Below, in pieces: positions 1-20,213 of a DNA stretch of 20,213 nt (the first letter of the stretch is position 1; each line of letters opens with the position of its first letter). Both the position numbers and the translations under genes were made by a program. The DNA comes from a virus: positions 1-20,213 of IMG/VR virus record IMGVR_UViG_3300007734_000431. One strand, written 5' to 3'. The notes under the pieces were generated by a model. That model was not told the DNA's origin. It was given only the letters and a program-made list of their open reading frames with translations, and searched no databases.

Positions 1-105
1 TACGCTGGTTAGGCGCTGCTGGCCCGCTGAGGCGTAGGCCAAGCAAGCGTAACCCTCTAGTGGCCAAGTTATGCTTACTCATAAGCGCATTACTAATCAT
101 TAACA
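1..105 (+). repeat. Conserved leader block, unit A copy
   Basis: Identical to 16195-16299 except base 69 (T here, C there). It covers the leader and signal-peptide codons of the transglycosylase. TACGCT (1-6)/AGCGTA (46-51) and TGGCC (20-24)/GGCCA (37-41) could form nested stems in the leader. Confidence 0.9.
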
Positions 106-398
106 CACAAGAGGCAAGAGCATATAACCCATCTATAGAGGCCTACAAGCTCTATGCTCATATGATGGTAGGTAGCGATAAGCAATACAGGTGCCTGGTA
201 GAGCTATGGGATCGTGAGTCGCATTGGAACCCTAAGGCTGATAACCCTAAGAGCAGCGCATATGGCATACCTCAGTTACTTAATATGACTACTACTAATC
301 CATATAGGCAGATAGAGTTAGGTGTTAAGTACATAACTAAACGTTATGGTAATAGCTGTAAGGCATTGGCTAGACATAAGAGAGTAGGTCATTACTAA
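60..398 (+). CDS. Secreted lytic transglycosylase-like protein (unit A)
   Basis: A 112-aa protein that probably cuts peptidoglycan glycan strands outside the membrane. Residues 2-21 form a signal peptide (short basic start, Leu/Ile-rich core, ARA before the mature YNP). The mature part has the lysozyme-like signature WDRESHWNPKA, with Glu53 the likely catalytic acid, then SAYGIPQ and a C-terminal GVKYITKRYGNSCKAL region; Cys45 and Cys100 could form a disulfide. This pattern is typical of short SLT/Rpf-like domains of Actinobacteria and their phages. The start is GTG, chosen because the signal peptide begins there and the diverged copy at 16254 uses the same one. The stop overlaps the HNH start (TAATG). 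Placing a cell-wall enzyme before the terminase, away from the lysis genes, is unusual. It could act at entry or in lysis. Confidence 0.8.
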   Translation: MAKLCLLISALLIINTQEARAYNPSIEAYKLYAHMMVGSDKQYRCLVELWDRESHWNPKADNPKSSAYGIPQLLNMTTTNPYRQIELGVKYITKRYGNSCKALARHKRVGHY

Positions 399-739
399 TG
401 GCTAAGGCAGGCGACCCCAGGTTAAAGCGTGCTTATCGTGATGGCTTTCGCACACGCATACTGCAGCGTGATGGCTATGTCTGCTTTTACTGTGGCCAAG
501 ATGCAGACCAAGTGGATCACGTGATACCGATATCTAAAGCGCCTGAGTTAGTGGTAAGTAGTGATAACGCTGTTGCCTGTTGCAAGCGTTGTAATACGAG
601 TAAGGGTAATAGGTCACAGGGGCTTTTTTTAGCCAAGAGCGCTACCCCCCCTGTCTTTTCAGACTCTTTATCCCCGAGGACAGCCGTACGGGGCGTACAA
701 GGCCCCTGTAAGGGTCAGGAGAGCCAAGATAAAACCTAA
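398..739 (+). CDS. HNH endonuclease (unit A)
   Basis: A 113-aa HNH nuclease. The fold is seen as a zinc knuckle, Cys29-x2-Cys32 and Cys62-x2-Cys65, around the core DHVIP (His41 as general base), an Asn in DNAVAC (57), and the closing CNTSKGNR. The first 20 residues are basic and the last 35 look disordered. In HK97-like phages, HNH proteins next to the terminase take part in DNA cleavage during packaging, and the position here, overlapping the terminase start by one base (TAATG), fits that role. The codons CTT TTT TTA (residues 76-78) and a C7 run are kept in both units. Confidence 0.88.
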   Translation: MAKAGDPRLKRAYRDGFRTRILQRDGYVCFYCGQDADQVDHVIPISKAPELVVSSDNAVACCKRCNTSKGNRSQGLFLAKSATPPVFSDSLSPRTAVRGVQGPCKGQESQDKT

Positions 740-2157
740 TGGCTACCAAACCTAACCAGCCGCGTACTGGGGCAACTAGACCACGCTTAGAAAACACACC
801 GCTAAAAGGCATAACCCGAGGTGTAGAGGTCGCGCGCCTGGCCGAGGATATCGGCCTGCCTTTATTGCCCTGGCAAAGCTACGTACTTAACGATCTATTG
901 ACGATTGATAAGAATAAGCAATTCATACGCAAAACTGCCCTAGTTTTATGCGCTAGGCAAAACGGCAAAAGCCACCTAGCGCGGATGCGTGTATTAGGTG
1001 GCCTGTTTCTATTTAATGAGCGTAACCACGTCATTATCTCTAGTGCTAGAGCTATGGCCTTGACTACCTTTAGAGAAGTAGTAGATGCCATCGAGGCAGC
1101 CCCGCAGTTACGGGCGCAGCTAAAACAAGTCAAATACACTAACGGGGCTGAGGCCATTATCTTAAAAAGCGGGGCAAGGCTTGACGTTAAGGCGGCTACT
1201 AGAGATTCAGCGCGCGGCGCTACGGCAGATTTCTTATTTATTGATGAGTTACGCGAGGTGGACGAGCTGGCCTACAGCGCAGCCCTGCCAGTAACTCGCG
1301 CAAGGCCTAACGCGCAAACCTTGCTAGCAAGTAACAGCGGCGATGCCTTTAGCACTACCTTAAATGACCTACGCGAGCGATGCCTATCGCACCCGCCTGC
1401 CTCAATGGGCTATTACGAGTACAGCGCCCCGCAGTTTGCAGCCCTTACGGATCGTAAAGCCTGGGCTATGGCTAACCCTGCGCTAGGCGTTTTGATTACT
1501 GAGGCCTCAATAGCTGAGGCGCTAACTACGCAAACTACCGAGCAATTTAGGACAGAAACTCTTTGCCAATGGATCGATAGCCTGCAAAGCCCCTGGCCTC
1601 ACGGATCGGTTGAGGATGCAAGTGATATTAACCTGAGTATGGCCCCTGGGCCGCTTACAGTCTTTGCCTTTGATGTTAGCCCGAGCAGGCGCGATGCAAG
1701 CCTAGTTATGGGGCAGATATTACCTAGCGGCAAGATAGGCGTAGCCGTGCTAGAAACTTACAGCTCACAGGTGGCAGTAGATGAGGTAGTCATAGCTGCA
1801 AGTGTTAAAAAATGGTGCGATATGTACTACCCGCGTGTAGTCTGCTATGACAAGTACACTACGGCCTCAATAGCACAGCGTTTGCAGATGGCAGGGGTGC
1901 AAACCCGCGATGTATCGGGGCAGAGCTTTTATACCGCCTGTTCGGACTTCCACGATGCCCTAACCAATGACAGGCTGCGACATAGCGGCCAGGATCAACT
2001 CGTGCAACAGATGAGCAACTGCGCGGCTAAAACTAACGATAGTAGCTGGCGTATTGTGCGCCGTAAGTCTGCAGGGGCCGTAGATATACCTATTGGCCTA
2101 GCTATGGTAATTCACGTACTAGCTCAGCCTGTATCTGAGGCTAAGGTTTATAGTTAG
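739..2157 (+). CDS. terL: Large terminase subunit (unit A)
   Basis: A 472-aa packaging motor and nuclease. The ATPase half has Walker A in ARQNGKS (72-78), Walker B FLFIDE (165-170, Glu170 catalytic) and the coupling motif ASN (197-199). The nuclease half, RNase H-like, has Asp312 (FAFDVSPSR), Asp371 (YDKY) and Asp449 (VDIPIGLAMV). Length and motif order fit the HK97/phage terminase family. No small terminase was recognised; the HNH protein or an unseen protein may do that job. The start overlaps the HNH stop. A 54-bp gap with the portal promoter follows. The unit B homologue has the same length but an in-frame TGA at codon 387. Confidence 0.95.
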   Translation: MATKPNQPRTGATRPRLENTPLKGITRGVEVARLAEDIGLPLLPWQSYVLNDLLTIDKNKQFIRKTALVLCARQNGKSHLARMRVLGGLFLFNERNHVIISSARAMALTTFREVVDAIEAAPQLRAQLKQVKYTNGAEAIILKSGARLDVKAATRDSARGATADFLFIDELREVDELAYSAALPVTRARPNAQTLLASNSGDAFSTTLNDLRERCLSHPPASMGYYEYSAPQFAALTDRKAWAMANPALGVLITEASIAEALTTQTTEQFRTETLCQWIDSLQSPWPHGSVEDASDINLSMAPGPLTVFAFDVSPSRRDASLVMGQILPSGKIGVAVLETYSSQVAVDEVVIAASVKKWCDMYYPRVVCYDKYTTASIAQRLQMAGVQTRDVSGQSFYTACSDFHDALTNDRLRHSGQDQLVQQMSNCAAKTNDSSWRIVRRKSAGAVDIPIGLAMVIHVLAQPVSEAKVYS

Positions 2158-2211
2158 ACACGCCGAGCCTATATATAACTTTTTACCTGTGGATAACCTA
2201 TAATCCGCACT
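2158..2211 (+). promoter_or_regulatory. Leaderless portal promoter with DnaA-box-like spacer (unit A)
   Basis: A perfect TATAAT at 2199-2204 lies seven bases before the portal ATG (2212), so transcription should begin at or next to the start codon, giving a leaderless mRNA; there is no Shine-Dalgarno. The -35 region (about 2175-2181) is weak. The spacer holds TGTGGATAA (2188-2196), the reverse complement of the DnaA box TTATCCACA. The same arrangement recurs at 18386-18410. Confidence 0.7.
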
Positions 2212-3375
2212 ATGGGTCTATTACAAACTTTAGGCATAACTAAAAAAGATGTAACCGCCCAATTAGCCCCTGCCATAATGAACCAGGGCTACGGTGCTGG
2301 CGTTTATAGTTTTGGTGGTTTATACGGCTCAGGTAATGGCACTCCATTTATGGATCGTTACATAGCTTTGCAAGTACCAGCTGTAGCTAGATGCCGTAAT
2401 TTAATTGCAGGCGTAATCTCTAGTATAGATTTAGAGTTATACAAAAAATCTACAGGCGCAGAATTAGAAAGCCCTTTATGGTTGGAGCAGCCTGATATGC
2501 GGCAGCCACGTAGCGTTACTATTGCTATGAGCGTTGATAGCCTCTTATTTTATGGGGTCTGTTACTGGCGCGTAACTTCATTGTATGCCGATGATGGCAG
2601 GCCTAGCGGTTTTGAGTGGATAGCTAATACTCGTGTAACTGTTACAACTAATAAAGATGGCAGCGAGGTACAAAGTTATGCTGTTAATGGCGTTGTAACG
2701 CCTATGGCTGGTATTGGCAGTTTAGTCACTTTTCAAAGTTTATTACCTGGCGTACTCGAAAGTGGCGCATCCACAATACAGAGCGCGCGTGATGTACAAA
2801 AAGCGGCAGCTGTTGCAGCTGCTACACCTATGGCTACAGGATTTATTAAAAATAGTGGTGCTGACCTGCCTGAGGCACAAGTTAGCGGCATATTAGCCGC
2901 GTGGAAGGCCGCGCGCGCATCTCGATCTACTGCATACTTAACTAGCACCCTGGATTATCAAACTGTGGGCTTTAGCCCTAAAGATATGCTTTACACAGAG
3001 GCTAGCCAGTACTTAGCTACAGAGATAGCGCGTTTAATGAACGTGCCTGCATATTACATAAGCGCAGATATGAATAACTCTCTCACATATCAAAATATAT
3101 TAGATGGCCGTAAAGAATTTGTAGCTTATTCTTTGCAACCATTTATTAGCGCAATCGAGGACAGGTTATCTATGGATGATATTACAGCGCACGGCAACGT
3201 AGTGCGTTTTGCTATAGATGAGAGTTTCTTACGCGCCGATACTACTGCTCGCTTAGCAGCGTTAGAGAAGTTATTACAACTTGGTTTAATTGATGTACCA
3301 ACTGCACAATCTATGGAGCAACTAAGCCCTATGGGAATCAAAGAAGGAGCTGTACAAAATGAAATTAACGTTTAG
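2212..3375 (+). CDS. Portal protein (unit A)
   Basis: A 387-aa HK97-type portal, the dodecameric ring through which DNA enters and leaves the head and to which the tail binds. Support: typical length for compact siphovirus portals, the early segment ALQVPAVARCRNLIAG (about 53-68), and the late signature LMNVPAYYISADMNNS followed by a TYQN...FVAYSLQPFISAIE helix, which is the family hallmark. It lies between terminase and protease-capsid as expected. The ATG start has a leaderless promoter and is at the same place in both units. The last 17 bases overlap the capsid gene in both units. Confidence 0.92.
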   Translation: MGLLQTLGITKKDVTAQLAPAIMNQGYGAGVYSFGGLYGSGNGTPFMDRYIALQVPAVARCRNLIAGVISSIDLELYKKSTGAELESPLWLEQPDMRQPRSVTIAMSVDSLLFYGVCYWRVTSLYADDGRPSGFEWIANTRVTVTTNKDGSEVQSYAVNGVVTPMAGIGSLVTFQSLLPGVLESGASTIQSARDVQKAAAVAAATPMATGFIKNSGADLPEAQVSGILAAWKAARASRSTAYLTSTLDYQTVGFSPKDMLYTEASQYLATEIARLMNVPAYYISADMNNSLTYQNILDGRKEFVAYSLQPFISAIEDRLSMDDITAHGNVVRFAIDESFLRADTTARLAALEKLLQLGLIDVPTAQSMEQLSPMGIKEGAVQNEINV

Positions 3376-4933
3376 CGGCGTAGTACAGGCCGTAGATGCA
3401 GGCGAGCGCCGAGTTATCGCTGGCAAGATAGCACCCTACGATGGCGAAATAGGTTATACAAGTGCGGGCAAAGTAGTATTTAGTAAAGGATCAATTACTG
3501 CAGCTAACCCCGATAAAATTAAATTGTTAATGTCACACGATAATAGCCAACCTGTAGGGCGTATGATTTCGATACAGTCTGCAGAAGATGGCCTTTACGC
3601 TAGCTTTAAGATAAGTAGTAGCACACGCGGTAACGATGCAATTTTGCTAGCCCAGGAACAACTAATGGACGGCCTTTCCGTCGGGGTTGAAGTGACAGCC
3701 TCGGAGCCTAAAAAAGGTTATCTCCTGGTGACGGCGGCAACTTTGCGCGAGGTTTCGTTAGTCGAAGCTGCCGCCTTTCCAAGTGCCGCCGTGCAAAGTA
3801 TTGCCGCTAGCGAAAGTGAAGCGGTAGATAAAAACCAACTAACCCAACCCGAAAGCGAGGCCGCTGTGACTACAGCCCCCGAAACTCCAACCGAGGATAG
3901 CACCGAGGCTGCACCTGTAGTAGAGGCAGCACGGCCAATTATCCGATCTAACCCGCTAGATTCCCAGCGAGTACGTACACCTATTACATCAATGGGCGCA
4001 TACACAGAGCATAAGATTAAGGCAGCCCTCGGTAACGAGGATTCTAAACTTTATGTAACTGCAGCCGATGACAGTTTCTCAACAAACCCAGCTTTTAACC
4101 CAACTCAGTACCTAAGCGAGTTTCCAACTAATACACGTTTTGGCACACCATCTATAGATGCTTGCTCACGCGGCACTTTGCCAGCTAGCGGTATGACTAT
4201 TAACGTGCCATCTTTGGTTACAAGTGCAGGCGGCCAGTCAGGCGTAGCACCTAGTGTAACTGTTGAGGCCGAAGCTGGAGCCGTACAAAATACAGGTATG
4301 GTTACAGAATATTTATCAGGCACAATTAACAAGTATTCAGGTATGAACACTCTTAGCATTGAATTACTAGAACGCTCTGATCCTAATTTCTACTCTGAAT
4401 TAACACAGCAACTACAAAACGCCTACCTCAAAACCCTAGATACCACCGTAAATGCAGCACTCATAACTGCGGGTACTGTTGCTACAACTGCACAGGCAGC
4501 TACATCGGCTGGCATTATTGGTTATACCTCAGAGGCATCACGTTTGGTTTATGAGGCTACTGGCTACTTTGCTAACAATTACATCGCTAACGGCTCACAA
4601 TGGCAGCTACTATTAGGCGCATCTGATACAACAGGCCGCCCTATTTACTCAGCTAGCCAGCCAATGAACGCAGGCGGGCTAACACAGCCTGGCTCTATTC
4701 GAGGTAATGTACTTGGCCTTGATCTCTATGTAGATAAGAACTTTGCAGCTAGCACTACTGTAGATGACTCAGCAATTATCCTTGCACCTGAGGCCTTTAC
4801 TGTGTACCAATCCCCTACTGCATATATGTCAGTTAATGTCGTATCCAACTTACAGGTACAGGTAGCCATCTATGGCTATATGGCAACTATTGCCAAGATG
4901 CCTAAGGGTATTATCCGATTTAACTTCACCTAA
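3359..4933 (+). CDS. Prohead protease-major capsid fusion (unit A)
   Basis: A 524-aa polyprotein. Residues 1-150 are an HK97-type (S78/U35) prohead protease: His60 in LMSHD, Ser107 in MDGLSVGV and Glu136 in REVSLVEAAAF form the expected catalytic set. Residues 150-205 are an acidic Glu/Thr/Ala/Pro linker that may act as a scaffold (delta) domain. Residues about 210-524 are the HK97-fold capsid protein, ending in an IYGYMATIAKMPKGIIRF strand-rich tail. Fusion saves space and is common in small actinophages. AAGGAG at 3344-3349 sits nine bases before the ATG. A possible internal GTG start at codon 170 could give capsid without protease. A hairpin follows the stop. Confidence 0.93.
   Translation: MKLTFSGVVQAVDAGERRVIAGKIAPYDGEIGYTSAGKVVFSKGSITAANPDKIKLLMSHDNSQPVGRMISIQSAEDGLYASFKISSSTRGNDAILLAQEQLMDGLSVGVEVTASEPKKGYLLVTAATLREVSLVEAAAFPSAAVQSIAASESEAVDKNQLTQPESEAAVTTAPETPTEDSTEAAPVVEAARPIIRSNPLDSQRVRTPITSMGAYTEHKIKAALGNEDSKLYVTAADDSFSTNPAFNPTQYLSEFPTNTRFGTPSIDACSRGTLPASGMTINVPSLVTSAGGQSGVAPSVTVEAEAGAVQNTGMVTEYLSGTINKYSGMNTLSIELLERSDPNFYSELTQQLQNAYLKTLDTTVNAALITAGTVATTAQAATSAGIIGYTSEASRLVYEATGYFANNYIANGSQWQLLLGASDTTGRPIYSASQPMNAGGLTQPGSIRGNVLGLDLYVDKNFAASTTVDDSAIILAPEAFTVYQSPTAYMSVNVVSNLQVQVAIYGYMATIAKMPKGIIRFNFT
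3849..3882 (+). promoter_or_regulatory. Possible internal start for free capsid protein (unit A)
   Basis: GAGG at 3857-3860 lies five bases before an in-frame GTG (3866-3868, codon 170). A block of about 33 bases here is identical in unit B, whereas the rest of the linker differs in sequence and length. Initiation here would give a 355-aa capsid protein without the protease. Confidence 0.35.
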
Positions 4934-4947
4934 GCAATAACTCAATA

Positions 4948-4983
4948 GTGGGTAGGGCATATTTAGCCCTTTGCCCTACTCAC
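4948..4983 (+). terminator. Hairpin after capsid gene
   Basis: GTGGGTAGGGCA (4948-4959) pairs with TGCCCTACTCAC (4972-4983) as a 12-bp stem with one G-U pair and a 12-base loop. It starts 15 bases after the capsid stop and ends just before the next ribosome site. No U tract follows, so it may be an attenuator, an mRNA 3'-end stabiliser or a processing site. Confidence 0.5.
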
Positions 4984-5003
4984 CTAACGTAAGGAGTACC
5001 GAT

Positions 5004-5657
5004 ATGGCCGCTACATATGTAACAGCCGCTACGCTTAAAGCTAGCCTCGGTGTCGGTACTCTTTACGATTCTTACAGCTGGATAGAGGACACCTGCCAGG
5101 CAGCCCAAGATTTAATTAACGGGTTTTTATGGTTTGATAACACGCCTGTAGTAGGCACAGCTTTAGTGTCCAATGTTGCTACAGTTATGTTAGCCAACCC
5201 TGGCATATTTACTACGGGCCAATCTGTAACTATCGCTGGGGCTGGTTCTACCTTTAACGGCACATACACCATTACGGCCACTATCCCCTTTAGCACAGGC
5301 AATAGCAATATCCTGCCAGCCTTTAATATGCAGCTTAACTACTGGCAATTTTCGCAGGGTTATAGCTTTATTCAATATGCCAAGACTGCATCGGATCAAA
5401 ACTTTAGGCGCGTACTTCCATACGGCACGGCTACGGGCGATGATACAAAGACTGCCACCTATGCCAATACGCCCGCCATAAATGCCGCCGCGCTAATCCT
5501 GGCAGAGAATATATGGACTGCGCGCTTTAGCACACAAAACGGCGGCACGGGCGTAGATGGATATAGCCCTAGCCCGTTTAAGATGAGCAATACGCTTATG
5601 GCATCTATTAGAGGTTTACTAGCACCTTACCTTAACCCTAGCGCTATGGTCGGCTAG
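5004..5657 (+). CDS. Head-tail connector protein
   Basis: A 217-aa protein directly after the capsid gene, where siphoviruses encode the adaptor (gp6/gp15-like) that binds the portal. The start is set at ATG 5004 because AAGGAG (4991-4996) is seven bases upstream; a longer frame from TTG at 4971 would lie inside the hairpin and has no ribosome site. The N-terminus (ATYVTAATLKASLG, then a helix with DTCQAAQDLINGFLWF) looks like an adaptor helical start. A middle part of about 40 residues is a beta-rich insert (VSNVATVMLANPG...GQSVTIAGAGSTFNG) similar in style to tail or Ig-like decorations. The C-terminal half has the helix NAAALILAENIWTARF. The role rests mainly on position. Confidence 0.65.
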   Translation: MAATYVTAATLKASLGVGTLYDSYSWIEDTCQAAQDLINGFLWFDNTPVVGTALVSNVATVMLANPGIFTTGQSVTIAGAGSTFNGTYTITATIPFSTGNSNILPAFNMQLNYWQFSQGYSFIQYAKTASDQNFRRVLPYGTATGDDTKTATYANTPAINAAALILAENIWTARFSTQNGGTGVDGYSPSPFKMSNTLMASIRGLLAPYLNPSAMVG

Positions 5658-6050
5658 ATGACTGCCGCAATTACTACGCTGCGCAGCACTATCGCTGCCG
5701 CTCTTGCTAATGCCTCAGTATGGAGTACTTACGCTTACCCACCAAGCACTTTAGTAGCTAACAGCGTTGTAGTGGCCCCTGCCGATCCATACATAACACC
5801 TAGCAATAATAGTTACTCGACTATAGCCCCTATGGCAAACTTTAAGATTATATGCACTATACCTATGTTTGATAACGCTGGAAACCTTGCAGGCATAGAA
5901 GACACAATAGTAGCGGTGTTTGTTTTACTAGCAGCTAGCACTATTGTATTTAACGTTAGTGCAGTATCAGCGCCTAGCGTGTTAAGCGTTGCTAGCGGTG
6001 ATTATCTAACGGCAGATTTAACCATAAATATACTAACGAGCTGGAGCTAA
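5658..6050 (+). CDS. Putative head closure or tail terminator protein
   Basis: A 130-aa protein starting at the base after the previous stop (TAGATG). Its layout is an N-terminal helix (TAAITTLRSTIAAALAN), then short beta strands (FKIICTIPMF, DTIVAVFVLLAAS) and a final strand ADLTINILTSW. Size, layout and position between the connector and the tail tube match neck or tail-terminator proteins (lambda U or HK97 gp10 region). No specific motif proves it. Head closure and tail terminator are equally possible. Confidence 0.5.
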   Translation: MTAAITTLRSTIAAALANASVWSTYAYPPSTLVANSVVVAPADPYITPSNNSYSTIAPMANFKIICTIPMFDNAGNLAGIEDTIVAVFVLLAASTIVFNVSAVSAPSVLSVASGDYLTADLTINILTSWS

Positions 6051-6054
6051 AACT

Positions 6055-6171
6055 ATGGCACTAACAGATGAAGATAAAGCATTTTTAATCAAGATAGGCC
6101 AAGAGCTGCCTAGCGAGGTTAAAGAAACAAAACCAACTAAAGAAACACAAATAGAAAAGGATGAGGCATAA
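6055..6171 (+). CDS. Small charged protein, 38 aa
   Basis: A short frame between the neck and tail tube genes, starting MALTDEDKAFLIKIGQ and ending in a Lys/Glu/Thr-rich tail (KETKPTKETQ). GGAG at 6043-6046 lies eight bases before the ATG, and the stop is three bases before the tail tube start. The strong ribosome site and the exact fit between neighbours argue that it is translated. It has no Cys, no membrane segment and no recognised family; the tail is probably disordered. Function unknown. Confidence 0.6.
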   Translation: MALTDEDKAFLIKIGQELPSEVKETKPTKETQIEKDEA

Positions 6172-6174
6172 GCG

Positions 6175-6585
6175 ATGGCTATATTTTTATCTAACGGGGT
6201 AATAGTTACGCTAAATAGCGTGGCCCTATCCGATCACGTAACAAGCGCAACAATTAACCGCAGCTTTGATGAGCTAGAGGTTACAGCTATGGGCGATACA
6301 GCTCACAAGTTTGTTAAGGGCCTAGAGGCCAGCACAATTACTCTAGATTTTCTTAACGATACTGCATCCTCTAACGTGCTACAGACTTTGCAAGCTGCCT
6401 GGGGTACAACTGTTGCACTAACGCTTAAGCAAACTAGCGCTGCAATTTCAGCTACAAACCCTGAGTATCAAACTACCGTGCTTGTAAATAACACTACAGA
6501 TATTAACGGCGGCCCCGCTGATATCAGCACCCAAAGTTTAACTCTAACCTGCAATAGCGTAATTGTTGTAGATACAACACCGTAA
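6175..6585 (+). CDS. Major tail tube protein
   Basis: A 136-aa beta-rich protein. The opening FLSNGVIVTLNSVALSDHV, the segment ATINRSFDELEVTAMGDTAHKF and the later ASTITLDFLND are typical of actinophage and other siphovirus tail tube subunits, which stack as hexamers around the tape measure. Next come the chaperone pair and tape measure, as in the canonical tail order. The ATG follows the 38-aa gene by three bases. Confidence 0.82.
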   Translation: MAIFLSNGVIVTLNSVALSDHVTSATINRSFDELEVTAMGDTAHKFVKGLEASTITLDFLNDTASSNVLQTLQAAWGTTVALTLKQTSAAISATNPEYQTTVLVNNTTDINGGPADISTQSLTLTCNSVIVVDTTP

Positions 6586-6610
6586 CCAACAAAGATAAGG
6601 GGCTAAACAA

Positions 6611-6865
6611 ATGGCACAACTAAAGATAACAAGGGCTGACGGATCGGTGTCTGAGCATCAGATAACCCCGCGTATTGAGTATGCCTTTGAGCTGTACGCT
6701 AAAAAAGGTTTCCACAAAGCCTTTAGAGACGATGAGAAGCAAAGCGATGTGTATTGGCTAGCCTGGGAGTGCATACGCACTAGCGGCGAGACTGTACCCG
6801 TGTTTGGGGCAGCGTTTTTAGATACCTTGGCTAAGGTCGAGGTACTAGACGATAACCCCCTGTAG
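6611..6865 (+). CDS. Tail assembly chaperone, short form (gpG-like)
   Basis: An 84-aa protein with a beta start (AQLKITRADGSVSEHQITPRIEYAFELYAKKGFHKAF) and a middle DVYWLAWECIR helix, which is the usual look of gpG-like tail chaperones. These bind the tape measure and help the tube polymerise. AGGGGC upstream may be the ribosome site. Just before its stop (TAG 6863) is a C5 run where a -1 shift would join it to the T frame. Position between tail tube and tape measure supports the call. Confidence 0.78.
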   Translation: MAQLKITRADGSVSEHQITPRIEYAFELYAKKGFHKAFRDDEKQSDVYWLAWECIRTSGETVPVFGAAFLDTLAKVEVLDDNPL

Positions 6866-7035
6866 TAGTGGGGCGCGGTAACTTTGGTTACCTCATAGCG
6901 CAGTTAGCCGTAGAAACAGGCATCGCGCCCCAGGCTTTACTAGATTTAGATAGCGTAATGCTAGCTAATATATTACAGGTATTAAAGGATCGAGCAAAGG
7001 AGATGCAGAATGCCCAGCGTAGAAATAAGAGGTAA
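6611..7035 (+). CDS. Tail assembly chaperone, -1 frameshifted form (gpGT-like)
   Basis: Joined product of about 141 aa: bases 6611-6859 are read normally, then reading resumes at 6859 in the -1 frame to TAA 7033-7035. The added 58 residues (RGNFGYLIAQLAVETGIAPQ, then LLDLDSVMLANILQVLKDRAKEM and a basic end) look like the T domain of actinophage chaperones, which contacts the tape measure. A shift is possible only in a short stretch, because the -1 frame has TAA at 6853-6855 and the normal frame stops at 6863. Within it, only the CCC codon at 6857-6859 re-pairs perfectly after slipping to 6856-6858. Reinitiation at GTG 6868 is the alternative for making the T part alone. Confidence 0.72.
6856..6932 (+). 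promoter_or_regulatory. Programmed -1 frameshift signal
   Basis: Slip site CCCCC (6856-6860), an 8-base spacer, then a perfect 9-bp GC-rich stem TGGGGCGCG (6869-6877) with CGCGCCCCA (6924-6932). Inside it lies a second hairpin, GGTAAC-TTTG-GTTACC (6877-6892; base 6877 can join only one stem). Spacing and strength fit a -1 frameshift stimulator. Confidence 0.65.
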
Positions 7036-12068: not shown

Positions 12069-12094
12069 TAAACAACCGATAAAGGAGAGCAATT

Positions 12095-13117: not shown

Positions 13118-13330
13118 GTGAGCGCGCAGGGGTGGATGGCTTTAATCTTAGGGGTTATTGCTATCCTCTCTGCCTTCTATGGCGGGGTGCGCTTTATCGT
13201 CAAGGCGCTAGTGGCTGAGTTACTGCCCGATAATAACGGGGGCCATAACCTGCGAGGCCGTGTAGATCGTATCGAGGTCAAGGTGGATAGGATTTACGAG
13301 CTGTTGATAGAGGCCAAACTATCGCGCTAG
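13118..13330 (+). CDS. Second lysis-cassette membrane protein
   Basis: A 70-aa protein starting at GTG just after the holin stop. One membrane segment (about 6-33, WMALILGVIAILSAFYGGVRFIV) is followed by a charged coiled-coil-like helix (RGRVDRIEVKVDRIYELLIEAK). The pattern, one membrane helix plus coiled coil beside a holin, matches partner or antiholin-type proteins in other actinophages. Role inferred from place and topology. Confidence 0.6.
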   Translation: MSAQGWMALILGVIAILSAFYGGVRFIVKALVAELLPDNNGGHNLRGRVDRIEVKVDRIYELLIEAKLSR

Positions 13331-13436
13331 CGTGTCGCGTTGCTAAATGTCATACCCAGGGGTCATACTTTAACTACAACGCCGAGGGGCTAACTCGGAA
13401 TAGGTAGCCTAATCGGCCCGATGTTAGGGGCTAAGT
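13331..13436 (+). promoter_or_regulatory. Structured gap, possible regulatory region
   Basis: GTCATAC is repeated directly (13349-13355, 13362-13368). A CCGAG/CTCGG hairpin with a 7-base loop spans 13382-13398. A second, imperfect hairpin (13407-13433) has the core ATCGG-C-CCGAT (13412-13422) and outer AGCC...GGCT. AGGGGC upstream of the next ATG may be its ribosome site. No good promoter was found; it may end the lysis transcript or control the next operon. Confidence 0.4.
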
Positions 13437-13598
13437 ATGATGATAGATATATCGTTTATAGTGTTATGTTTTATAGCGCTAGTTTTATGGGCTGTAATGA
13501 TGTGGACTATAGGCTTTAAGCAAGGTCGGCAAGAAGGCTACACAGCTGGCTATATGAAAGGCCGCAACGTAGGCCGCAGCTCGGTAAATACAAAATGA
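13437..13598 (+). CDS. Small membrane protein, 53 aa
   Basis: Starts MMIDISFIVLCF and has one hydrophobic helix (about 4-25) followed by a basic Gly/Arg-rich tail GFKQGRQEGYTAGYMKGRN, a spaced GxxxGR/EGYxxGY pattern that recurs in small actinophage membrane proteins. AGGGGC is a candidate ribosome site. Its TGA overlaps the next ATG (ATGA), suggesting translational coupling. Function unknown. Confidence 0.62.
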   Translation: MMIDISFIVLCFIALVLWAVMMWTIGFKQGRQEGYTAGYMKGRNVGRSSVNTK

Positions 13599-14206
13599 GC
13601 AGCTTTTTAGATAACTACGAGCTAGCCAATGACACAATTAAAAGGTTTTGGATTGAGCATCCAACAGGGCGCATTATGCCTATTATTGTAGATATTGACT
13701 TAACGGCTGGCTGGGTGCTATTCAAGGTTGAGGTGTATCGAGAGTATGAGGATCACCAGCCTAGCGCCATAGGCCACGCATACGGTAATGTAAACTTTTA
13801 CCCTGCCAATATGAAGCGCTGGATGGTAGAAGATGTAGAAACTAGCGCAATAGCCAGGGCCATAAAGCTACTTACACCGAGCGCCGAGCGCCCGAGCCGT
13901 GAGGATATGCAAAAGGTAGAGGCGCTAAAGCCAATGCCTGATAACACAGATTTTTGGGCTACTAACCCTGCAGCTGCAGCTATACCAACACTAGCCGAGG
14001 CTGTAACTACCCTGGCTACGTCAATGGGGGCAATAAGCGCCCCAGGGGTACCTAATTGTAATCACGGGGCTAGGGTATGGCGCACGGGTGAAAAGAACGG
14101 CAAAGCCTGGGCTAACTATGGCTGCACAGAAAAGAGCCGTACTAACCAATGCGCCCCTGAGTGGTATGTATTGGCAAGCGATGGAAGCTGGAAGCCGCAA
14201 CTATGA
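13595..14206 (+). CDS. Erf/Rad52-like single-strand annealing protein candidate
   Basis: A 203-aa protein. Residues 1-100 (DTIKRFWIEHPTGRIMPIIV, VLFKVEVYREYED, then VETSAIARAI at 81-90) follow the pattern of phage recombination proteins in which the ETSAIGRAL-like helix is a hallmark. A linker is followed by a C-terminal zinc-finger-like part with Cys155, His157, Cys177 and Cys186, a tail known from relatives. It should bind single-stranded DNA for recombination or for circularising or concatenating genomes. ATGA overlaps on both sides put it in an operon with neighbours. A general single-strand binding protein is the alternative. Confidence 0.62.
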   Translation: MSSFLDNYELANDTIKRFWIEHPTGRIMPIIVDIDLTAGWVLFKVEVYREYEDHQPSAIGHAYGNVNFYPANMKRWMVEDVETSAIARAIKLLTPSAERPSREDMQKVEALKPMPDNTDFWATNPAAAAIPTLAEAVTTLATSMGAISAPGVPNCNHGARVWRTGEKNGKAWANYGCTEKSRTNQCAPEWYVLASDGSWKPQL

Positions 14207-14394
14207 GCCGATACAGCGAGATAATAAACCTTAACGCTATGACAGCCAAGCTATTAGATGATGGCGAGGTTATCGCAGAATACAAGGTAGAAACCTGCGA
14301 TAAATGCGCTCGCATTACACAGTTAGATAAGTTTGGCTATCAGAAAAGCGATCCTGCTAATAATTTAATATGGTTTTGTAAAGAGTGCAGGTAA
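14203..14394 (+). CDS. Small zinc-ribbon protein, 63 aa
   Basis: Starts at ATG 14203 in an ATGA overlap with the previous stop; a longer upstream start was rejected because the extension only repeats the other frame. Two pairs, CDKC (about 42-45) and CKEC (59-62), form a likely zinc ribbon; the middle is NNLIWF. No named family. It may bind nucleic acid or a partner protein, as many phage zinc ribbons do. The stop overlaps the next gene (TAATG). Confidence 0.6.
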   Translation: MSRYSEIINLNAMTAKLLDDGEVIAEYKVETCDKCARITQLDKFGYQKSDPANNLIWFCKECR

Positions 14395-14906
14395 TGGGGG
14401 TTAAAGTTACTTTATCGCACACAATGGTTAAACAAGTAATACATATTGGTAAAGAGCGAGCAGTTAATTATGGATCAGAGCATATAAATTATAAAATTAA
14501 ACTACACGGCGATATTACCTTTAACGAGTTTATAACTAGGCAAGTGTTATATGTAGCTACCGAGATGGCTGTATGCGTGTGGTCGGGTATCCCAGGGGCC
14601 GTGCCAAACAATGAAAACAGAAAAGAAAAAGCCGATGTAGGGGCCAATATGGAAGTAAAATACAACACCGACGGCCCTGATCTATTTATAGATGATACTG
14701 ATAGGCCAAGCGACATAGCTATTCTTACTAAAGGCGCGTGGCCTACTTTTGAGTTAATGGGCTGGGCTAAGGTGGCCGATGTGCAACAGCCGCAATATGC
14801 CTTTATGCGCCCTGGTACTTATCGTATGTTGGCTAGCGAGCTAAGGCCTATGGATCACCTAGAGGTAAAAGGAGATACGGCCTATGAGCGATTACATACG
14901 CTTTGA
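14394..14906 (+). CDS. Possible PD-(D/E)XK nuclease
   Basis: A 170-aa protein starting at ATG 14394 (TAATG overlap); a start nine bases earlier is possible. The central DVGANMEVKY gives a D...ExK pattern as in PD-(D/E)XK nucleases, after a long helix with FNEFITRQVLYVATEMAVC. The later WPTFELMGWAKVADVQQPQY and MRPGTYRMLASELRPM resemble a phage family with the same end (gw...a...w...YxVxxxxLRPM). Place among recombination and modification genes supports a nuclease role, but the active site is only a partial match. Confidence 0.48.
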   Translation: MGVKVTLSHTMVKQVIHIGKERAVNYGSEHINYKIKLHGDITFNEFITRQVLYVATEMAVCVWSGIPGAVPNNENRKEKADVGANMEVKYNTDGPDLFIDDTDRPSDIAILTKGAWPTFELMGWAKVADVQQPQYAFMRPGTYRMLASELRPMDHLEVKGDTAYERLHTL

Positions 14907-15042
14907 GTGCAGAAAGTGCAAGAAAGTAACCAACCAGCTAGAGCGCATAGTTACCGATAACCTGCCGCCTAATGTAAAGGTGTTGGAGTGTAGCGTATGT
15001 GGCATTATGGGCGTGTGCTTATTAGAGGCTACCGATGCTTAA
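14884..15042 (+). CDS. Small zinc-ribbon protein, 52 aa
   Basis: A short frame starting at ATG 14884 with AAGGAG (14869-14874) nine bases upstream, the clearest ribosome site in the cluster. Product: MSDYIRFECRKCKKVTNQLE, then VLECSVCGIMGVC. Two Cys pairs (Cys9/Cys12 and Cys36/Cys39, plus Cys45) suggest a zinc ribbon. It overlaps the gene before by 23 bases and the methyltransferase by 8. Function unknown; nucleic acid binding is plausible. Confidence 0.62.
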   Translation: MSDYIRFECRKCKKVTNQLERIVTDNLPPNVKVLECSVCGIMGVCLLEATDA

Positions 15043-16105
15043 AATAGGCTCGCTCTGTACGGGTTACGGCGGCCTTGATATGGCAGTAGAGGCTTACTAT
15101 GGGGCAGAAACTGTGTGGGTATCGGAGTTTGACAAGTACGCTAGTAAAGTCATAGAGGCAAGAATAAATAAGCCTAACTTAGGTAACTTAAAAGTAATTA
15201 ACTGGGCTGAGTTAGAGCCTATAGACATACTCACGGCTGGATATCCTTGCCAGCCCTTTAGCCACGCAGGACTTAGAAAGGGTGTAGAAGATGAAAGACA
15301 CTTATGGCCATATATCAAAACAGCCATTAGCACATTACGACCCAGCTACGTCATCTTGGAAAACGTACGAGGACATTTTGGACTTGGGTTTAGAGAAGTC
15401 CTCTGTGACTTTACCTCTATCGGGTATGACGTGCGATGGACTCTTATACGAGCTAGTGACGTTGGAGCGCCCCATAGACGAGAGCGACTATTTATCCTTG
15501 CCTACCCCAATAGCACACGATGGCCACGAGCCAAGCCCAGCGACCTTCAAGCGCAACAGTCCTGGAATAGCAGCAGTAATACTTATGAATATACCAACAC
15601 CGACGGCCAGCGGTGCTATCTGGGACAAAACTACGGCAACGAGGTCGAATATCAAGGGCAATCACAACTTATCGCTAGCCGACTGGTCGAAGCAATTACT
15701 ACCCACACCGACGGCGATACACGTACGCAATCACGACGAGCCAGTAGAGAATTACGAGCAGAGAGTACAGGACTACAAAGAGGGCAAGACAAAGGGCAAG
15801 CCAGGGGCCAGTCTAGGGGTAGCGTTAAGACTGTTTCCGACACCGACGACGGGCGAGGGGTCAGGACAGTGCCGAGATTATCGCAGCGATATGACCCACG
15901 CAGCTCTATGCACTTGCAAGAAGTACCGACTCCATTGGATCAAGGTAAATTAAATGTAAAGTTCGTTGAATATATGATGGGCTTGCCTAATGGATGGGTA
16001 ACAGATATAGACTTACCACGCGCTCAAATGCTTAAGATATTGGGTAATGGTGTTGTACCTCAACAGGCTTATAGAGTTTTAGAATTGCTCAATAATGTTA
16101 AATAG
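15035..16105 (+). CDS. C5-cytosine DNA methyltransferase
   Basis: A 356-aa enzyme that transfers a methyl group from SAM to cytosine C5. Motif I SLCTGYGGLD (6-15), motif IV TAGYPCQPFSHAG with nucleophile Cys72, motif VI ENV (109-111), motif VIII GAPHRRERLF (144-153) and motif X LGNGVVPQQA (336-345) are intact. Residues about 155-300 form a variable region, the likely target recognition part, rich in NTDG/DTDD-like turns and Gln/Arg. The closing LNVKFVEYMMGLPNGWVT is typical of phage enzymes. It may protect phage DNA from host restriction; no paired restriction enzyme was seen. A 220-codon ORF in the +1 frame overlaps residues 86-306. The stop is right before the DnaA-box-like cluster. Confidence 0.93.
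   Translation: MLKIGSLCTGYGGLDMAVEAYYGAETVWVSEFDKYASKVIEARINKPNLGNLKVINWAELEPIDILTAGYPCQPFSHAGLRKGVEDERHLWPYIKTAISTLRPSYVILENVRGHFGLGFREVLCDFTSIGYDVRWTLIRASDVGAPHRRERLFILAYPNSTRWPRAKPSDLQAQQSWNSSSNTYEYTNTDGQRCYLGQNYGNEVEYQGQSQLIASRLVEAITTHTDGDTRTQSRRASRELRAESTGLQRGQDKGQARGQSRGSVKTVSDTDDGRGVRTVPRLSQRYDPRSSMHLQEVPTPLDQGKLNVKFVEYMMGLPNGWVTDIDLPRAQMLKILGNGVVPQQAYRVLELLNNVK
15291..15953 (+). CDS. Overlapping +1-frame ORF, PTPTA-motif family
   Basis: A 220-codon frame inside the methyltransferase gene. AAAGGG (15277-15282) lies eight bases before its ATG. The product begins MKDTYGHISKQPLAHYDP, then SSWKTYEDIL, LPLSGMTCDGLLYEL and four motifs of the form (L/I/F)PTPxA-like: 70-78, 101-108, 137-142 and 182-188. 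Phrases such as SSWKT, PxSGM..G and LPTPTA..G are known from phage methyltransferase-associated proteins, so the frame does not look random. In this region the main frame encodes motifs VI-VIII and the variable part, and each PTP motif falls on a PN/NTD/HTD/DTD turn. It may be a translated overlapping gene, or a relic of a frame change in the family. Confidence 0.5.
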   Translation: MKDTYGHISKQPLAHYDPATSSWKTYEDILDLGLEKSSVTLPLSGMTCDGLLYELVTLERPIDESDYLSLPTPIAHDGHEPSPATFKRNSPGIAAVILMNIPTPTASGAIWDKTTATRSNIKGNHNLSLADWSKQLLPTPTAIHVRNHDEPVENYEQRVQDYKEGKTKGKPGASLGVALRLFPTPTTGEGSGQCRDYRSDMTHAALCTCKKYRLHWIKVN

Positions 16106-16194
16106 TTATCCACAGAAGTTATCCACAGGGGGTGTGGACAAAGCGACACACCGCCCTCACCAGCACTTATACCCTTACCTATTGACAGCTGCGG
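16106..16194. promoter_or_regulatory. Cluster of three DnaA-box-like sites, candidate origin
   Basis: Two direct perfect boxes TTATCCACA (16106-16114, 16119-16127) and one on the other strand, TGTGGACAA (16133-16141), the complement of the actinobacterial form TTGTCCACA. They are spaced 13-14 bases apart and lie in the only gap between methyltransferase and unit B. TTGACA at 16182-16187 could be a -35 box but no good -10 follows. Confidence 0.6.
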
Positions 16195-16299
16195 TACGCT
16201 GGTTAGGCGCTGCTGGCCCGCTGAGGCGTAGGCCAAGCAAGCGTAACCCTCTAGTGGCCAAGCTATGCTTACTCATAAGCGCATTACTAATCATTAACA
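16195..16299 (+). repeat. Conserved leader block, unit B copy
   Basis: Partner of the block at 1-105, with one base difference. The window begins exactly at the first base of this block, so its extent further upstream cannot be compared. It is the natural joining point between the two units. Confidence 0.9.
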
Positions 16300-16595
16300 T
16301 AGAGCCAGTAAGAGCTGCATATAACCCAAACATAGAGGCATATAAGCTCTATGCTCATATGATGATAGGCAGCGATAAGCAATACAGGTGCCTGGTCGAG
16401 CTATGGGATCGTGAGAGCCATTGGAACCCTAAGGCTAATAACCCTAAGAGCAGCGCATACGGCATACCTCAACTGTTACATATGACCAGCACTAATCCAT
16501 ATAGGCAGATAGAGTTAGGTGTTAAGTACATAACTAAACGTTATGGTAATAGCTGTAAGGCATTGGCTAGACATAAGAGAGTAGGTCATTACTAA
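16254..16595 (+). CDS. Secreted lytic transglycosylase-like protein (unit B)
   Basis: A 113-aa homologue of the first gene, about ten residues different, most of them in the signal peptide end (INIEPVRAAYNP) and three in the middle. Glu54 in WDRESHWNPKA and SAYGIPQ are kept. One Ala codon is inserted near the cleavage site. The frame is open back to ATG 16095, but that extension would cross the DnaA-box-like cluster and bury the signal peptide, so the GTG at 16254 is preferred. The last 105 bases (16491-16595) are identical to unit A. The stop abuts the next ATG (TAAATG) instead of overlapping as in unit A. Confidence 0.8.
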   Translation: MAKLCLLISALLIINIEPVRAAYNPNIEAYKLYAHMMIGSDKQYRCLVELWDRESHWNPKANNPKSSAYGIPQLLHMTSTNPYRQIELGVKYITKRYGNSCKALARHKRVGHY

Positions 16596-16937
16596 ATGGC
16601 TAAGGCAGGTGATCCACGCATACAGCGAGCCTATCGCTACACCTTTAGGACTAGGATACTGCGCCGTGATGGCTTTATCTGTTATTACTGTGGTGGTGAT
16701 GCTGACCAGGTCGATCACGTTATCCCAATCTCTGTAGCACCTGAGCTAGTGGTCAATGCTGAGAACGCTGTTGCCTGTTGCAAGCCGTGTAATACGAGTA
16801 AGGGTAATCGCCCACAGGGGCTTTTTTTAGCCAAGACGGCTACCCCCCCTGTCTTTTCTGACCTTTTATCCCCAAAAACGTCTGTAATGACCCAGCAAGG
16901 CCCTTGTACTGGCCAACCCGAGCAGGATAAAAACTAA
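16596..16937 (+). CDS. HNH endonuclease (unit B)
   Basis: A 113-aa homologue with both zinc Cys pairs (CYYC, CKPC), DHVIP and CNTSKGNR intact, so it should be active. The C-terminal tail after residue 90 differs more (LLSPKTSVMTQQGP). The T7 and C7 runs of the unit A gene are kept. It overlaps the terminase start by one base. Confidence 0.88.
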   Translation: MAKAGDPRIQRAYRYTFRTRILRRDGFICYYCGGDADQVDHVIPISVAPELVVNAENAVACCKPCNTSKGNRPQGLFLAKTATPPVFSDLLSPKTSVMTQQGPCTGQPEQDKN

Positions 16938-18355
16938 TGGCAACCAAACCTAAACAGGCGCTACGAGGGGCGGTCAAACCACGGCTTGAAAACAAACCGC
17001 TGAAAGGCCCCAGCCGTGGCGATGAAGTTGCACAGCTGGCCGAGGATATTGGCCTGCCGCTTTTACCCTGGCAACGCTACGTAATGCAGGATATGTTGAC
17101 GATAGATAAAAATAAAATGTTTATTAGAAAGACAAACTTGCTATTGACCTCACGCCAACAAGGAAAGAGCCACCTGGCGCGTATGCGTATCCTGGCGGGT
17201 TTATTCTTGTTTAACGAGCGTAACCACGTGGTTATCTCCTCAGCGCGATCTATGGCATTAACGACTTTTAGAGAAGTGGCACAAGCTATAGAGGATGCAC
17301 CTATCCTAAAAAAAGAGCTAAAGAGCATCCGTTATGCAAACGGTAATGAGGCTATAGTCCTAAAGTCAGGTGCCCGCCTAGATGTTAGAGCTGCTACACG
17401 TGACTCAGCCCGCGGTGCCACGGCAGATTTTCTATTTATAGATGAACTACGAGAAGTTGACCAAGTTGCTTTTGCAGCTGCGATGCCAGTAACCCGCGCA
17501 CGGCCAAACGCCCAAACCCTACTAGCCAGTAATGCAGGCGATGCTTTTAGCGTGACGTTAAACGAGTTAAGGGAGCGATGCCTAGCACACCCGCCTGAGT
17601 CTTTAGGCTATTACGAGTACAGCGCCCCACAGTTTGCAGCTTTAGATGATCGTAAAGCCTGGGCGCAAGCCAACCCAGCTTTAGGCATATTGGTAACTGA
17701 GGCATCTATTCAAGAGGCGCTCACGACACAAACCACCGAGCAATTTAGGACGGAGACGTTATGCCAATGGATAGATAGGCTACAATCACCGTGGCCCCAC
17801 GGCAGCGTTGAGGATGCCAGCGACATAACCCTAAAAATGGCACCTGGGCCTTTAACTATTTTTGCCTTTGATGTTAGCCCGTCTAGGCGCGATGCAAGTC
17901 TTGTAATGGGTCAACTATTGCCTGACGGGCGCATAGGCGTAGCTGTATTAGAGACTTACAGCTCACAGGTTGCCGTAGATGAGCTAGTTATAGCTGCAAG
18001 TATTAAAAAATGGGCTGACCTGTATTACCCACGTTTGGTTTGCTATGACAAGTACACCACTCAGAGTATTGCCCAGCGTTTACAAAATGCAGGGTGACAA
18101 ACTCGCGACATATCAGGGCAGAGCTTTTATACAGCTTGTTCAGACTTTCACGATGCCCTGGTCAATGATCGGCTACGCCATAGCGGCCAAGATTTACTTA
18201 TACAACAAATGGCCAACTGCGCAGCTAAAATAACACCCGATGCCTGGCGAATTGTGCGCCGTAAATCGGCTGGCCCTGTGGATATTCCAATCGGCTTAGC
18301 TATGGTTATTCATATCCTGGCTCAGCCTGTATCTGAGGCTAAAGTTTACGTTTAG
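16937..18355 (+). pseudogene. terL: Large terminase with in-frame TGA (unit B)
   Basis: The full frame has 473 codons, as in unit A, but codon 387 is TGA (18095-18097), where unit A has GTG (Val). Upstream the ATPase motifs are intact (SRQQGKS, FLFIDE, ASN) and so are the first two nuclease aspartates (FAFDVSPSR, YDKY). The stop cuts off the last nuclease segment (VDIPIGLAMV). Downstream the frame stays open to TAG 18353-18355 with mostly synonymous changes, so the damage is recent, is a sequence error, or the stop is read through. GGGGTG in A versus GGGTGA in B could come from two compensating one-base changes. TGA serves as an ordinary stop elsewhere (9622, 13596, 14204, 14904), so recoding is unlikely. 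Confidence 0.75.
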
Positions 18356-18409
18356 ACACGCCGAGGTTGTGTATAACTTTATACCTGTGGATAACCTATA
18401 ATCCGCCCT
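18356..18409 (+). promoter_or_regulatory. Leaderless portal promoter with DnaA-box-like spacer (unit B)
   Basis: TATAAT (18397-18402) lies seven bases before the portal ATG at 18410, and TGTGGATAA (18386-18394) fills the spacer. The stretch ACCTGTGGATAACC through TATAATCCGC is unchanged from unit A, though the upstream half of the gap differs. Confidence 0.7.
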
Positions 18410-19573
18410 ATGGGTCTATTGCAAACTTTTGGATTATCTAAAAAAGATGTTACTGCCCAGCTAGCCCCTGCCGTTATGTCACAAGGTTACGGCGCTGGCG
18501 TTTATAGCTACGGCGGCCTGTATGCAACTGGCAACGGTGCCCCGTTTATGGATCGCTTTACAGCTTTGCAAGTGCCAGCTGTTAATCGTTGCCGTAATTT
18601 AATTGCAGGCGTTATATCAAGTATTGATTTAGAGCTATACAAAAAATCTACAGGTGTAGAAATGGAAAGCCCGCTATGGCTTGACCAACCCGATATGCGC
18701 CAACCACGTAGCGTAACTATTGCTTATACCGTTGATTCACTTTTATTTTATGGCGTTGCATATTGGCGCGTTACAAGTTTGTACGCCGATGACGGGCGCC
18801 CTAGCGGTTTTGAGTGGGTTGCTAATACTCGCGTAACTGTTACAACTAACAAATATGGCGATGAGGTTGAGTATTATTCTGTTAATGGTGAGCGCGCACC
18901 TATGGCGGGTATTGGATCACTCGTTACTTTTCAATCTTTGTTACCTGGCGTATTAGAGACAGGTGCCCGCACAATACAAGCTGCAATAGATTTAGAAAAG
19001 GCCGCAAGTGTTGCAGCTGCTACACCAATGCCTACAGGATTTATTAAAAATAGTGGTGCCGATTTACCTGAGGCACAGATAAGCGGTTTGCTGGCTGCGT
19101 GGAAAGCAGCACGTGCATCACGCAGTACAGCATATTTAACAAGTACTTTAGATTATCAACAGGTTGGCTTTAGTCCTAAAGATATGATGTACAACGAGGC
19201 CAGCCAGTATTTAGCTACACAGATAGCGCGTTTAATGAACGTACCTGCATATTACATAAGTGCAGATATGAATAACTCAACGACTTACCAAAATATCTTA
19301 GACGGGCGCAAGGAGTTTGTCGCATATTCTTTGCAACCGTTTATCAGCGCTATTGAAAACCGTTTATCTATGGATGATATTACGGCGCACGGTAACGTAG
19401 TGCGCTTTGCGTTAGATGAAACTTTTTTACGTGCCGATACTGCAGCACGTTTAGATGCAATAGAGAAAATGCTCAATTTAGGTTTAATTGATCTACAACA
19501 AGCTCAGAGTATGGAACAGCTAAGCCCAATGGGCCTTAATGAAGGGAACGGCACTAATGATATTAACCTTTAG
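18410..19573 (+). CDS. Portal protein (unit B)
   Basis: A 387-aa portal, the same length as in unit A, with the same HK97 signature (LMNVPAYYISADMNNS, FVAYSLQPFISAIE). Differences are scattered and mostly mild (for example MDRYIA/MDRFTA). It starts leaderless like its partner and overlaps the capsid gene by 17 bases. Nothing looks broken, which contrasts with the terminase before it. Confidence 0.92.
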   Translation: MGLLQTFGLSKKDVTAQLAPAVMSQGYGAGVYSYGGLYATGNGAPFMDRFTALQVPAVNRCRNLIAGVISSIDLELYKKSTGVEMESPLWLDQPDMRQPRSVTIAYTVDSLLFYGVAYWRVTSLYADDGRPSGFEWVANTRVTVTTNKYGDEVEYYSVNGERAPMAGIGSLVTFQSLLPGVLETGARTIQAAIDLEKAASVAAATPMPTGFIKNSGADLPEAQISGLLAAWKAARASRSTAYLTSTLDYQQVGFSPKDMMYNEASQYLATQIARLMNVPAYYISADMNNSTTYQNILDGRKEFVAYSLQPFISAIENRLSMDDITAHGNVVRFALDETFLRADTAARLDAIEKMLNLGLIDLQQAQSMEQLSPMGLNEGNGTNDINL

Positions 19574-20213
19574 TGGCAATATAGAGGCAGTAGATAGTGG
19601 AGACCGCCGCACTATTTCAGGCAAAATTGCACCTTACGGTGAGGTTGGTTATACAAGCGCGGGCAAAGTAGTTTTTGCTGAGGGTTCAATTAGCGCACCT
19701 GAGCCAAGCCGAGTAAAACTTTTAATGTCGCACGATAACTCAAAGCCAGTTGGACGTATGCAAAGCATTACATCTGCCAAAGACGGTTTATATGCAAGTT
19801 TTAAGGTAAGTGCCTCATCACGGGGCAGCGATGCAATTTTGCTAGCCCAGGAACAACTTATGGACGGCTTATCCGTTGGTGTGGAAGTTACCGCATCAGA
19901 GCCTAAAAAAGATTATCTCCTGGTCACCGCTGCCACCTTACGCGAGGTGTCACTTGTTGAGAGCGCTGCCTTTGCCAGCGCTGCGGTGCAAAAAATTGCT
20001 GCCGCTGCAGGCGATATGCCTGTGGATGCTGCTATGTCACAAAGTACAAAAGTTACAACTACCAATACGGTAATAAACACAACCACAACCGAAACCGAAA
20101 CCGAAAGCGAGGCCGCTGTGACTACAGCCCCCGATCAATCCGCACCTGAGGCAGTAGATGCCACAGAGCAGGCTGCACCTACAGTAGAGGCAGCTCGTAA
20201 AATCATCCTACCA
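19557..20213 (+). CDS. Prohead protease-capsid fusion, 5' part (unit B)
   Basis: An open frame of 219 codons cut by the window end. Protease residues His59 (LMSHD), Ser106 (MDGLSVGV) and the Glu in REVSLVESAAF are kept, so the protease should work. The linker is longer than in unit A: it adds a Gln/Thr/Asn stretch (AMSQSTKVTTTNTVINTTTT) and a Glu-Thr repeat before the shared ESEAAVTTAP. GAAGGGA upstream serves as ribosome site. The capsid half lies beyond the window. Confidence 0.9.
   Translation, partial: MILTFSGNIEAVDSGDRRTISGKIAPYGEVGYTSAGKVVFAEGSISAPEPSRVKLLMSHDNSKPVGRMQSITSAKDGLYASFKVSASSRGSDAILLAQEQLMDGLSVGVEVTASEPKKDYLLVTAATLREVSLVESAAFASAAVQKIAAAAGDMPVDAAMSQSTKVTTTNTVINTTTTETETESEAAVTTAPDQSAPEAVDATEQAAPTVEAARKIILP
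20100..20133 (+). promoter_or_regulatory. Possible internal start for free capsid protein (unit B)
   Basis: GAGG (20109-20112) and in-frame GTG (20118-20120) repeat the unit A arrangement within an identical block of about 33 bases, while the linker sequence on both sides differs. Confidence 0.35.

Follow-up and report, generated by a model that had tools for sequence, protein, structure and literature searches.

The described phages closest in kind to the one considered here are small phages with cohesive ends. Gordonia phage SallySpecial (Emperorvirus, MG812496) has a 15.9-kb linear genome with a combined major capsid and maturation protease gene, and its HNH endonuclease is annotated as split across the two cohesive ends (misc_feature 15576-15896 and 1-96); Arthrobacter phage Decurro (Decurrovirus, cluster AN, KT355471), at 15.5 kb, also has a fused protease-capsid gene and carries HNH as the last gene at its right end. 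For Arthrobacter phages, 3' cohesive extensions of 9-13 nt are given as the range in PMC5513430. Here we examine the IMG/VR virus record IMGVR_UViG_3300007734_000431 over its whole length of 20,213 bp (the window), in which a block of lysis, packaging and head genes recurs head to tail in diverged form. We consider it likely that the window comprises one complete linear phage genome of about 16.2 kb (659-16843), to which the ends of two related phages are joined at the cohesive-end site (cos), and not a tandem genome; the tandem itself is, judged from sequence, most likely not a feature of any genome.

The phage is most likely an uncultured freshwater relative of the known small cohesive-end phages of the Decurro and SallySpecial kind, with which it has in common its size, the fusion of protease and major capsid protein, and an HNH gene at or across the right end. 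Unlike the window, SallySpecial carries a small terminase, an integrase and a repressor, and in Decurro the HNH gene lies inside one end and three small genes precede the terminase. The proteins are distant: the portal of SallySpecial is 30.3% identical to that of the window over 75% of the query, and the Decurro capsid 42.6% over 27% of the query. Among isolated phages the best-ranked matches of the terminase large subunit (TerL) stand at 29.5-29.9% (the best 25 of 1524 listed, all <60%) and those of the portal at 30-31% (the best 12 of 208 listed, all <60%), positions 1-8000 have no DNA match in the phages collection, and the close protein or DNA identity that membership of genus Decurrovirus or Emperorvirus would entail was not found. 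The distant TerL, capsid and portal matches are mostly to phages of actinobacteria, which is a likeness of sequence and no link to a host. Uncultured relatives are plentiful, at least 600 stretches in viral_contigs matching the portal; those most useful here (L004, G056 (L129/L331), L085 and L333) are colinear with the window where they match, at 73-98% DNA identity by piece, and L004 and L085 carry the same cos 13-mer. They are nonetheless different strains, L004 being joined to another left arm and L085 being without the DNA methylase.

The repeat and the cohesive ends

Self-comparison aligns 1-3807 with 16195-20002 at 77.3% identity (3,827 columns, E 0.0) and 3841-3944 with 20093-20208 at 75%, and both copies (units A and B) run colinearly through SLT, HNH, TerL, portal and protease-capsid. 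The matching stretches fall into families at offsets 16194-16198, with a final piece at offset 16252, and the longest exact repeats in the window are of 105 bp (294-398 and 16491-16595) and 68 bp (1-68 and 16195-16262). The diverged head-to-tail repeat with conserved gene order that the first-pass annotation had described is thereby confirmed, as is its judgement that this is no simple terminal repeat or over-read circle; a genome with direct terminal repeats is rejected on the same ground, the copies being just 77% alike. That the window opens on the first base of the repeat, which had also been remarked, is correct but carries little weight, as the record has no sequence before base 1.

The physical ends are located by a 13-mer, CCCCCCTGTCTTT, present twice and identically in the window, at 646-658 and 16844-16856. 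When the ends of relatives' contigs (loci L004-L171, both strands) were placed on the window, 19 of 34 starts near cos fell exactly at the equivalent of 659, and of 31 ends 14 fell exactly at 645 and 4 more within one base; the 13 bases of CCCCCCTGTCTTT are missing from starts and ends alike. Matches to the 13-mer listed with <=2 mismatches number 103, of which 92 are exact; the list counts overlapping loci as well as some chance matches elsewhere than at cos. During end polishing, 3' overhangs are trimmed off and 5' overhangs are filled in; a gap of 13 nt between contig ends, taken together with such polishing, fits a 13-nt 3' cohesive end, and we infer that the overhang is 3'. The spacing from one cos to the other, 16,198 (646 to 16844), lies within the class size of ~14-17 kb, and relatives with both contig ends at cos (G003, G009, G019, G067) are each one unit, 14.9-15.8 kb long. 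As far as sequence can show, the earlier proposal of a complete, minimal siphovirus-type genome holds for one unit, but that unit extends from cos to cos, 659-16843, and not over 1-16194. Several relatives (L109, L118, L148, L151, L152, L160, L161, L164) stop 1-8 nt past the 13-mer with tails that differ, as if the assembler had met many left partners.

The HNH reading frame runs across this site. In 130 of 131 junctions, the window's two among them and L009 being the exception, it continues open across cos, and its stop falls 60-84 nt past cos, while two control frames are open through cos in 0/131 and 1/131 junctions. On the evidence of these frames, the predicted HNH gene is whole only once the ends are joined, and the arrangement is conserved. 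Since the HNH of SallySpecial is split across its ends and that of Decurro is the last gene, such an arrangement was already known; a literature search for HNH genes spanning cohesive ends returned no paper.

The heterologous join at the second cos

To the left of the second cos (cos 2), the window follows L004. The two agree at 98.2% over 14860-16872, straight through 16195 and the 105-bp block, at 96.6-100% per 500-bp bin from 15001 on, and at 100% over the last 300 bp before cos 2 in the fine profile; over the 322 bp adjoining the 13-mer on this side they do not differ at all. To the right of the 13-mer the likeness is lost: the left arm of L004 is 55.6% identical to that of the window over 144 nt, whereas the first 250 bp after the 13-mer are 97.2% identical to L206, whose own right end is in turn 61.3% identical to the window's over 111 bp. 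A further relative, L166, matches 16326-20213 at 90.9%. The fine profiles used free end gaps, so that their low values may be too high, and the statements about cos 2 also rest on full-length alignments. Sequence comparison thus shows the closest relative to switch exactly at the second cos, which makes 16844-16856 a heterologous join. It likewise shows partners to be exchanged between contigs, for the left arm of L004 recurs in L294 (97.7% over 87 nt) behind a right end that is 58% alike. At the other extremity, the right end in 1-645 is, over 600 bp, 85.7% identical to the one preceding cos 2 and reads as another strain of the complete genome's clade (clade A), while 16857-20213 reads as belonging to a different clade (clade B).

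A mechanism may be sketched from these observations. The virion DNAs of different phages would bear identical sticky ends and so be able to pair end to end. At cos 1 the complete genome would be joined to another clade-A phage (X) by the latter's right end, and at cos 2 to a clade-B phage (Y) by its left end. We suppose that annealing of the identical overhangs followed extraction and that library preparation sealed the joins, so that true reads crossed them and the assembler followed. Ten listed left-arm neighbours of cos 2 share just 2-7 nt to the left of the 13-mer, which makes a join through shared words of >=27 unlikely. No published statement that annealing of cohesive ends makes chimeric virome contigs was found in a search outside of which most subscription journals lay.

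Joins in other contigs and competing explanations

Comparable joins are found among the relatives. Self-comparison of 34 relatives' contigs picked for length (of which G037, G038, G063 and G065 were compared over part of their sequence) gave a head-to-tail repeat in 24. Ten of these repeats are 100% identical over 72-127 bp, as over-read circles would give; five further ones lie at 98.6-99.6%, six at 87-97%, and three mostly at <80%, namely G040 (pieces of 65-81%), G057 (68%) and G081 (68%), from samples 3300011339, 3300011335 and 3300011338. G040, of 29.7 kb, consists of two different genomes joined at cos, and within the single contig G081 the same right end (100% over 114 bp) leads into two left ends that are 62.9% alike. 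BLAST found no head-to-tail repeat in nine of the 34 (G037, G065, G004, G010, G017, G006, G088, G074, G075); the far end of G065, from sample 3300007734, enters a left arm 45% like its own over 53 nt. Inverted copies also occur: the 19.7-kb G013 (L025, L179) has diverged copies head to head (84.6% over 1.45 kb, with further pieces), and G014 and G031 contain inverted TerL pieces, all of which are possibly assembly artefacts.

According to PMC7553992, samples 3300007734/7735 and 3300011113-11116 are Lake Soyang viromes, prepared from CsCl-purified virions by TruSeq without amplification, sequenced as 2 x 300 reads and assembled with SPAdes (k 27-127), contigs >=10 kb being deposited. Samples 3300011334-11339 are probably the Han River viromes of the same group (PMC7265639), made much alike. 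We compared 141 junctions, 16 of them in this Korean series, calling a junction concordant when a near right-end relative from another sample, outside the series, also had a left arm of >=0.75 identity. We chose the cut-offs ourselves, and the junctions are not independent of one another; with right-end relatives at >=0.80, 7/14 were discordant in the Korean series against 9/117 elsewhere (Fisher p 2.2e-4), at >=0.85 6/10 against 11/103 (7.1e-4), and at >=0.90 4/6 against 8/88 (2.1e-3). Starting from the left arm, the figures were 4/10 against 4/112 at 0.80 (1.4e-3), 4/7 against 5/104 at 0.85 (6.6e-4), and 3/4 against 2/88 at 0.90. Of the window's own two joins, that at cos 2 was discordant and the other concordant with right ends at 0.80, and the same division, cos 2 again discordant, was obtained from the left arm at 0.90.

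The stretch from cos to cos reads as one genome. From 6501 on, 15 of 21 bins of 500 bp have their best match in L004/L143, L127, L129 or L086. L333, as one contig, spans the window-equivalents 2872 to 12896, with 82.3% over 6295-11250 and an A-type left region, and G056, also a single contig, runs from the equivalent of 3312, where it is 90.4% identical to copy A and 74.7% to copy B, to the right end. Several observations weigh against our preferred account of a complete genome with foreign ends joined at cos. Four of the 21 bins (7501-8500 and 9501-10500) are best matched by L025 or L099 and two match nothing; over 16394-16543 the identity of L004 itself falls to 78-92% per 50 bp. Natural mosaicism exists, as in L015 (3300011114_000443), whose TerL is 96% identical to unit A while its DNA is 94-97% identical to unit B at 18501-20000, making it a mosaic within the left arm, whether natural or artefactual. 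No examined contig except the window links the genome's left arm to its right arm. Finally, the discordance test is soft for the window's own joins: with right ends at 0.85 and 0.90 cos 1 was concordant and cos 2 had no neighbour, and from the left arm at 0.80 and 0.85 both were concordant.

One rival explanation is a switch within the interior, whereby the assembly path would enter as strain A (R_A + L_A) and leave, through a common interior, as a mosaic strain Z (R_B + L_B), both cos joins then being ordinary self-joins. Joins of R_A type to L_A type do recur in L085 and, over 118 nt, in L086, mosaicism is common, four interior bins have their best match in relatives not of the clade-A group, and six over-length relatives have copies 87-97% alike. 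We nevertheless regard this as unlikely, given that 15 of the 21 bins are best in one group, that L333 crosses 6295-11250 as one contig with an A-type left region, that G056 joins such a left region to a right end of the clade-A group, and that no examined contig links L_B to the window's interior. The distances of right and left arms correlate at 0.58 over 67 crossing joins and at 0.31 over the 12 joins linked through an interior, the latter genomes being too few to separate the models; of the 72 junctions found for this set, L179 and L158 were removed manually, and a further three, whose right arms are short, were omitted.

A hybrid concatemer, in which a co-infected host cell ligates the cohesive ends of two phages before packaging, would be permitted by identical 13-nt ends. 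Cutting at cos would, however, restore monomers from concatemers and should make such joins rare in virions, and discordant joins are commonest in the very series that includes the Lake Soyang virion DNA, so that we hold this to be improbable. The first-pass annotation had put forward a chimera of two co-occurring phages via the 105-bp block (near 16491-16595); a switch at 16195 is considered with it. As far as the sequence tells, DNA of different co-occurring phages is indeed joined head to tail, but neither position is supported: the exact 105- and 68-bp repeats, and the difference of L004 from the window over part of 16394-16543, speak for such a placement, whereas L004 agrees with the window on either side of the block and continues across it and 16195 with a dip of only 150 bp, from which the gene order there is natural, and L086 has the same order. 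We have rejected this placement as very improbable. Least credible of all are tandem prophages, another option raised earlier, or a real double genome, for which the head-to-tail order speaks. No integrase was found in 20 proteins (Pfam) or 10 proteins (PHROGs), attachment sites not having been searched; a TerL-based search for a host in genome_contigs, a scan limited to close relatives, gave 45 stretches matching the pattern, none of them confirmed; and the relatives bounded by cos on both sides measure one unit each (14.9-15.8 kb).

Gene content and implications

The features of the window are collected in Table 1; a major tail protein gene is also among those annotated by the Pfam and PHROGs scans.

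Table 1. Positions of genes, cohesive-end sites and proposed segments in the window.
Feature	Positions	Strand	Basis or best relatives
Right end read as second clade-A phage (X): SLT gene 60-398 and 5' part of HNH	1..645	+	L129, L086, L085, L127
SLT lysis gene (phage X right end)	60-398	+	
HNH endonuclease gene, cut by cos 1	398..739	+	Pfam HNH E 1.1e-7
cos 1, 13-nt cohesive end CCCCCCTGTCTTT	646..658	+	relatives' contig ends
Probable complete phage genome, left to right cohesive end; 16,185 bp + 13-nt overhang	659..16843	+	G056, L333, cos-to-cos relatives
Terminase large subunit, unit A	739..2157	+	phrog_9 E 2e-62
Portal protein, unit A	2212..3375	+	Pfam Phage_portal E 2e-33
Prohead protease fused to major capsid protein	3359..4933	+	Peptidase_S78 E 7.5e-11; phrog_2263 major head protein E 4.3e-58
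M15-type endolysin	12464..12928	+	Pfam Peptidase_M15_4 E 6.2e-14; phrog_1512 endolysin E 3.8e-21
C5-cytosine DNA methylase	15035..16105	+	Pfam DNA_methylase E 3.9e-44
SLT lysis gene at genome's own right end (open frame as listed)	16095..16595	+	Pfam SLT E 4.7e-5
Second HNH frame; begins in the complete genome and finishes in phage Y, frame kept across cos 2	16596..16937	+	
cos 2, same 13-mer; heterologous join	16844..16856	+	closest relative switches exactly here
Left end read as clade-B phage (Y): TerL with in-frame TGA, portal, start of protease-capsid	16857..20213	+	L206, L166

The TGA within the unit-B TerL lies at 18095-18097, and no internal stop occurs among the relatives' matches listed. 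In the probable tape-measure gene, two 63-bp repeats (9304-9432; 66-bp spacing, 97%) encode a proline-rich unit, and L004 and L333 also carry repeats at the equivalent place. Positions 14398-14859 are unmatched by L004, L127, L129 and L086, the flanks matching at 79-86% and 89-98%. The C5 DNA methylase gene adjoins the right end, where the window is 97-100% identical to L004 per 500 bp; it is absent from L085, and about 570 bp stands in its place in L086.

The present analysis places the physical ends for a large group of uncultured phages. It also indicates that an over-length contig with the look of a tandem or recombinant genome can consist of different phages linked through a common cohesive end, and that false tandems may be checked for by locating the site at which relatives' contigs stop and asking whether the closest relative switches exactly there. 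A more far-reaching idea, which we think decidedly improbable, is that a single public 13-nt sticky end is maintained throughout a guild of freshwater phages whose terminases can be as little as about half identical, so that genomes of different phages join in co-infected cells. Were this so, each join would give the HNH protein the tail of the other phage, and left and right arms could reassort at cos.

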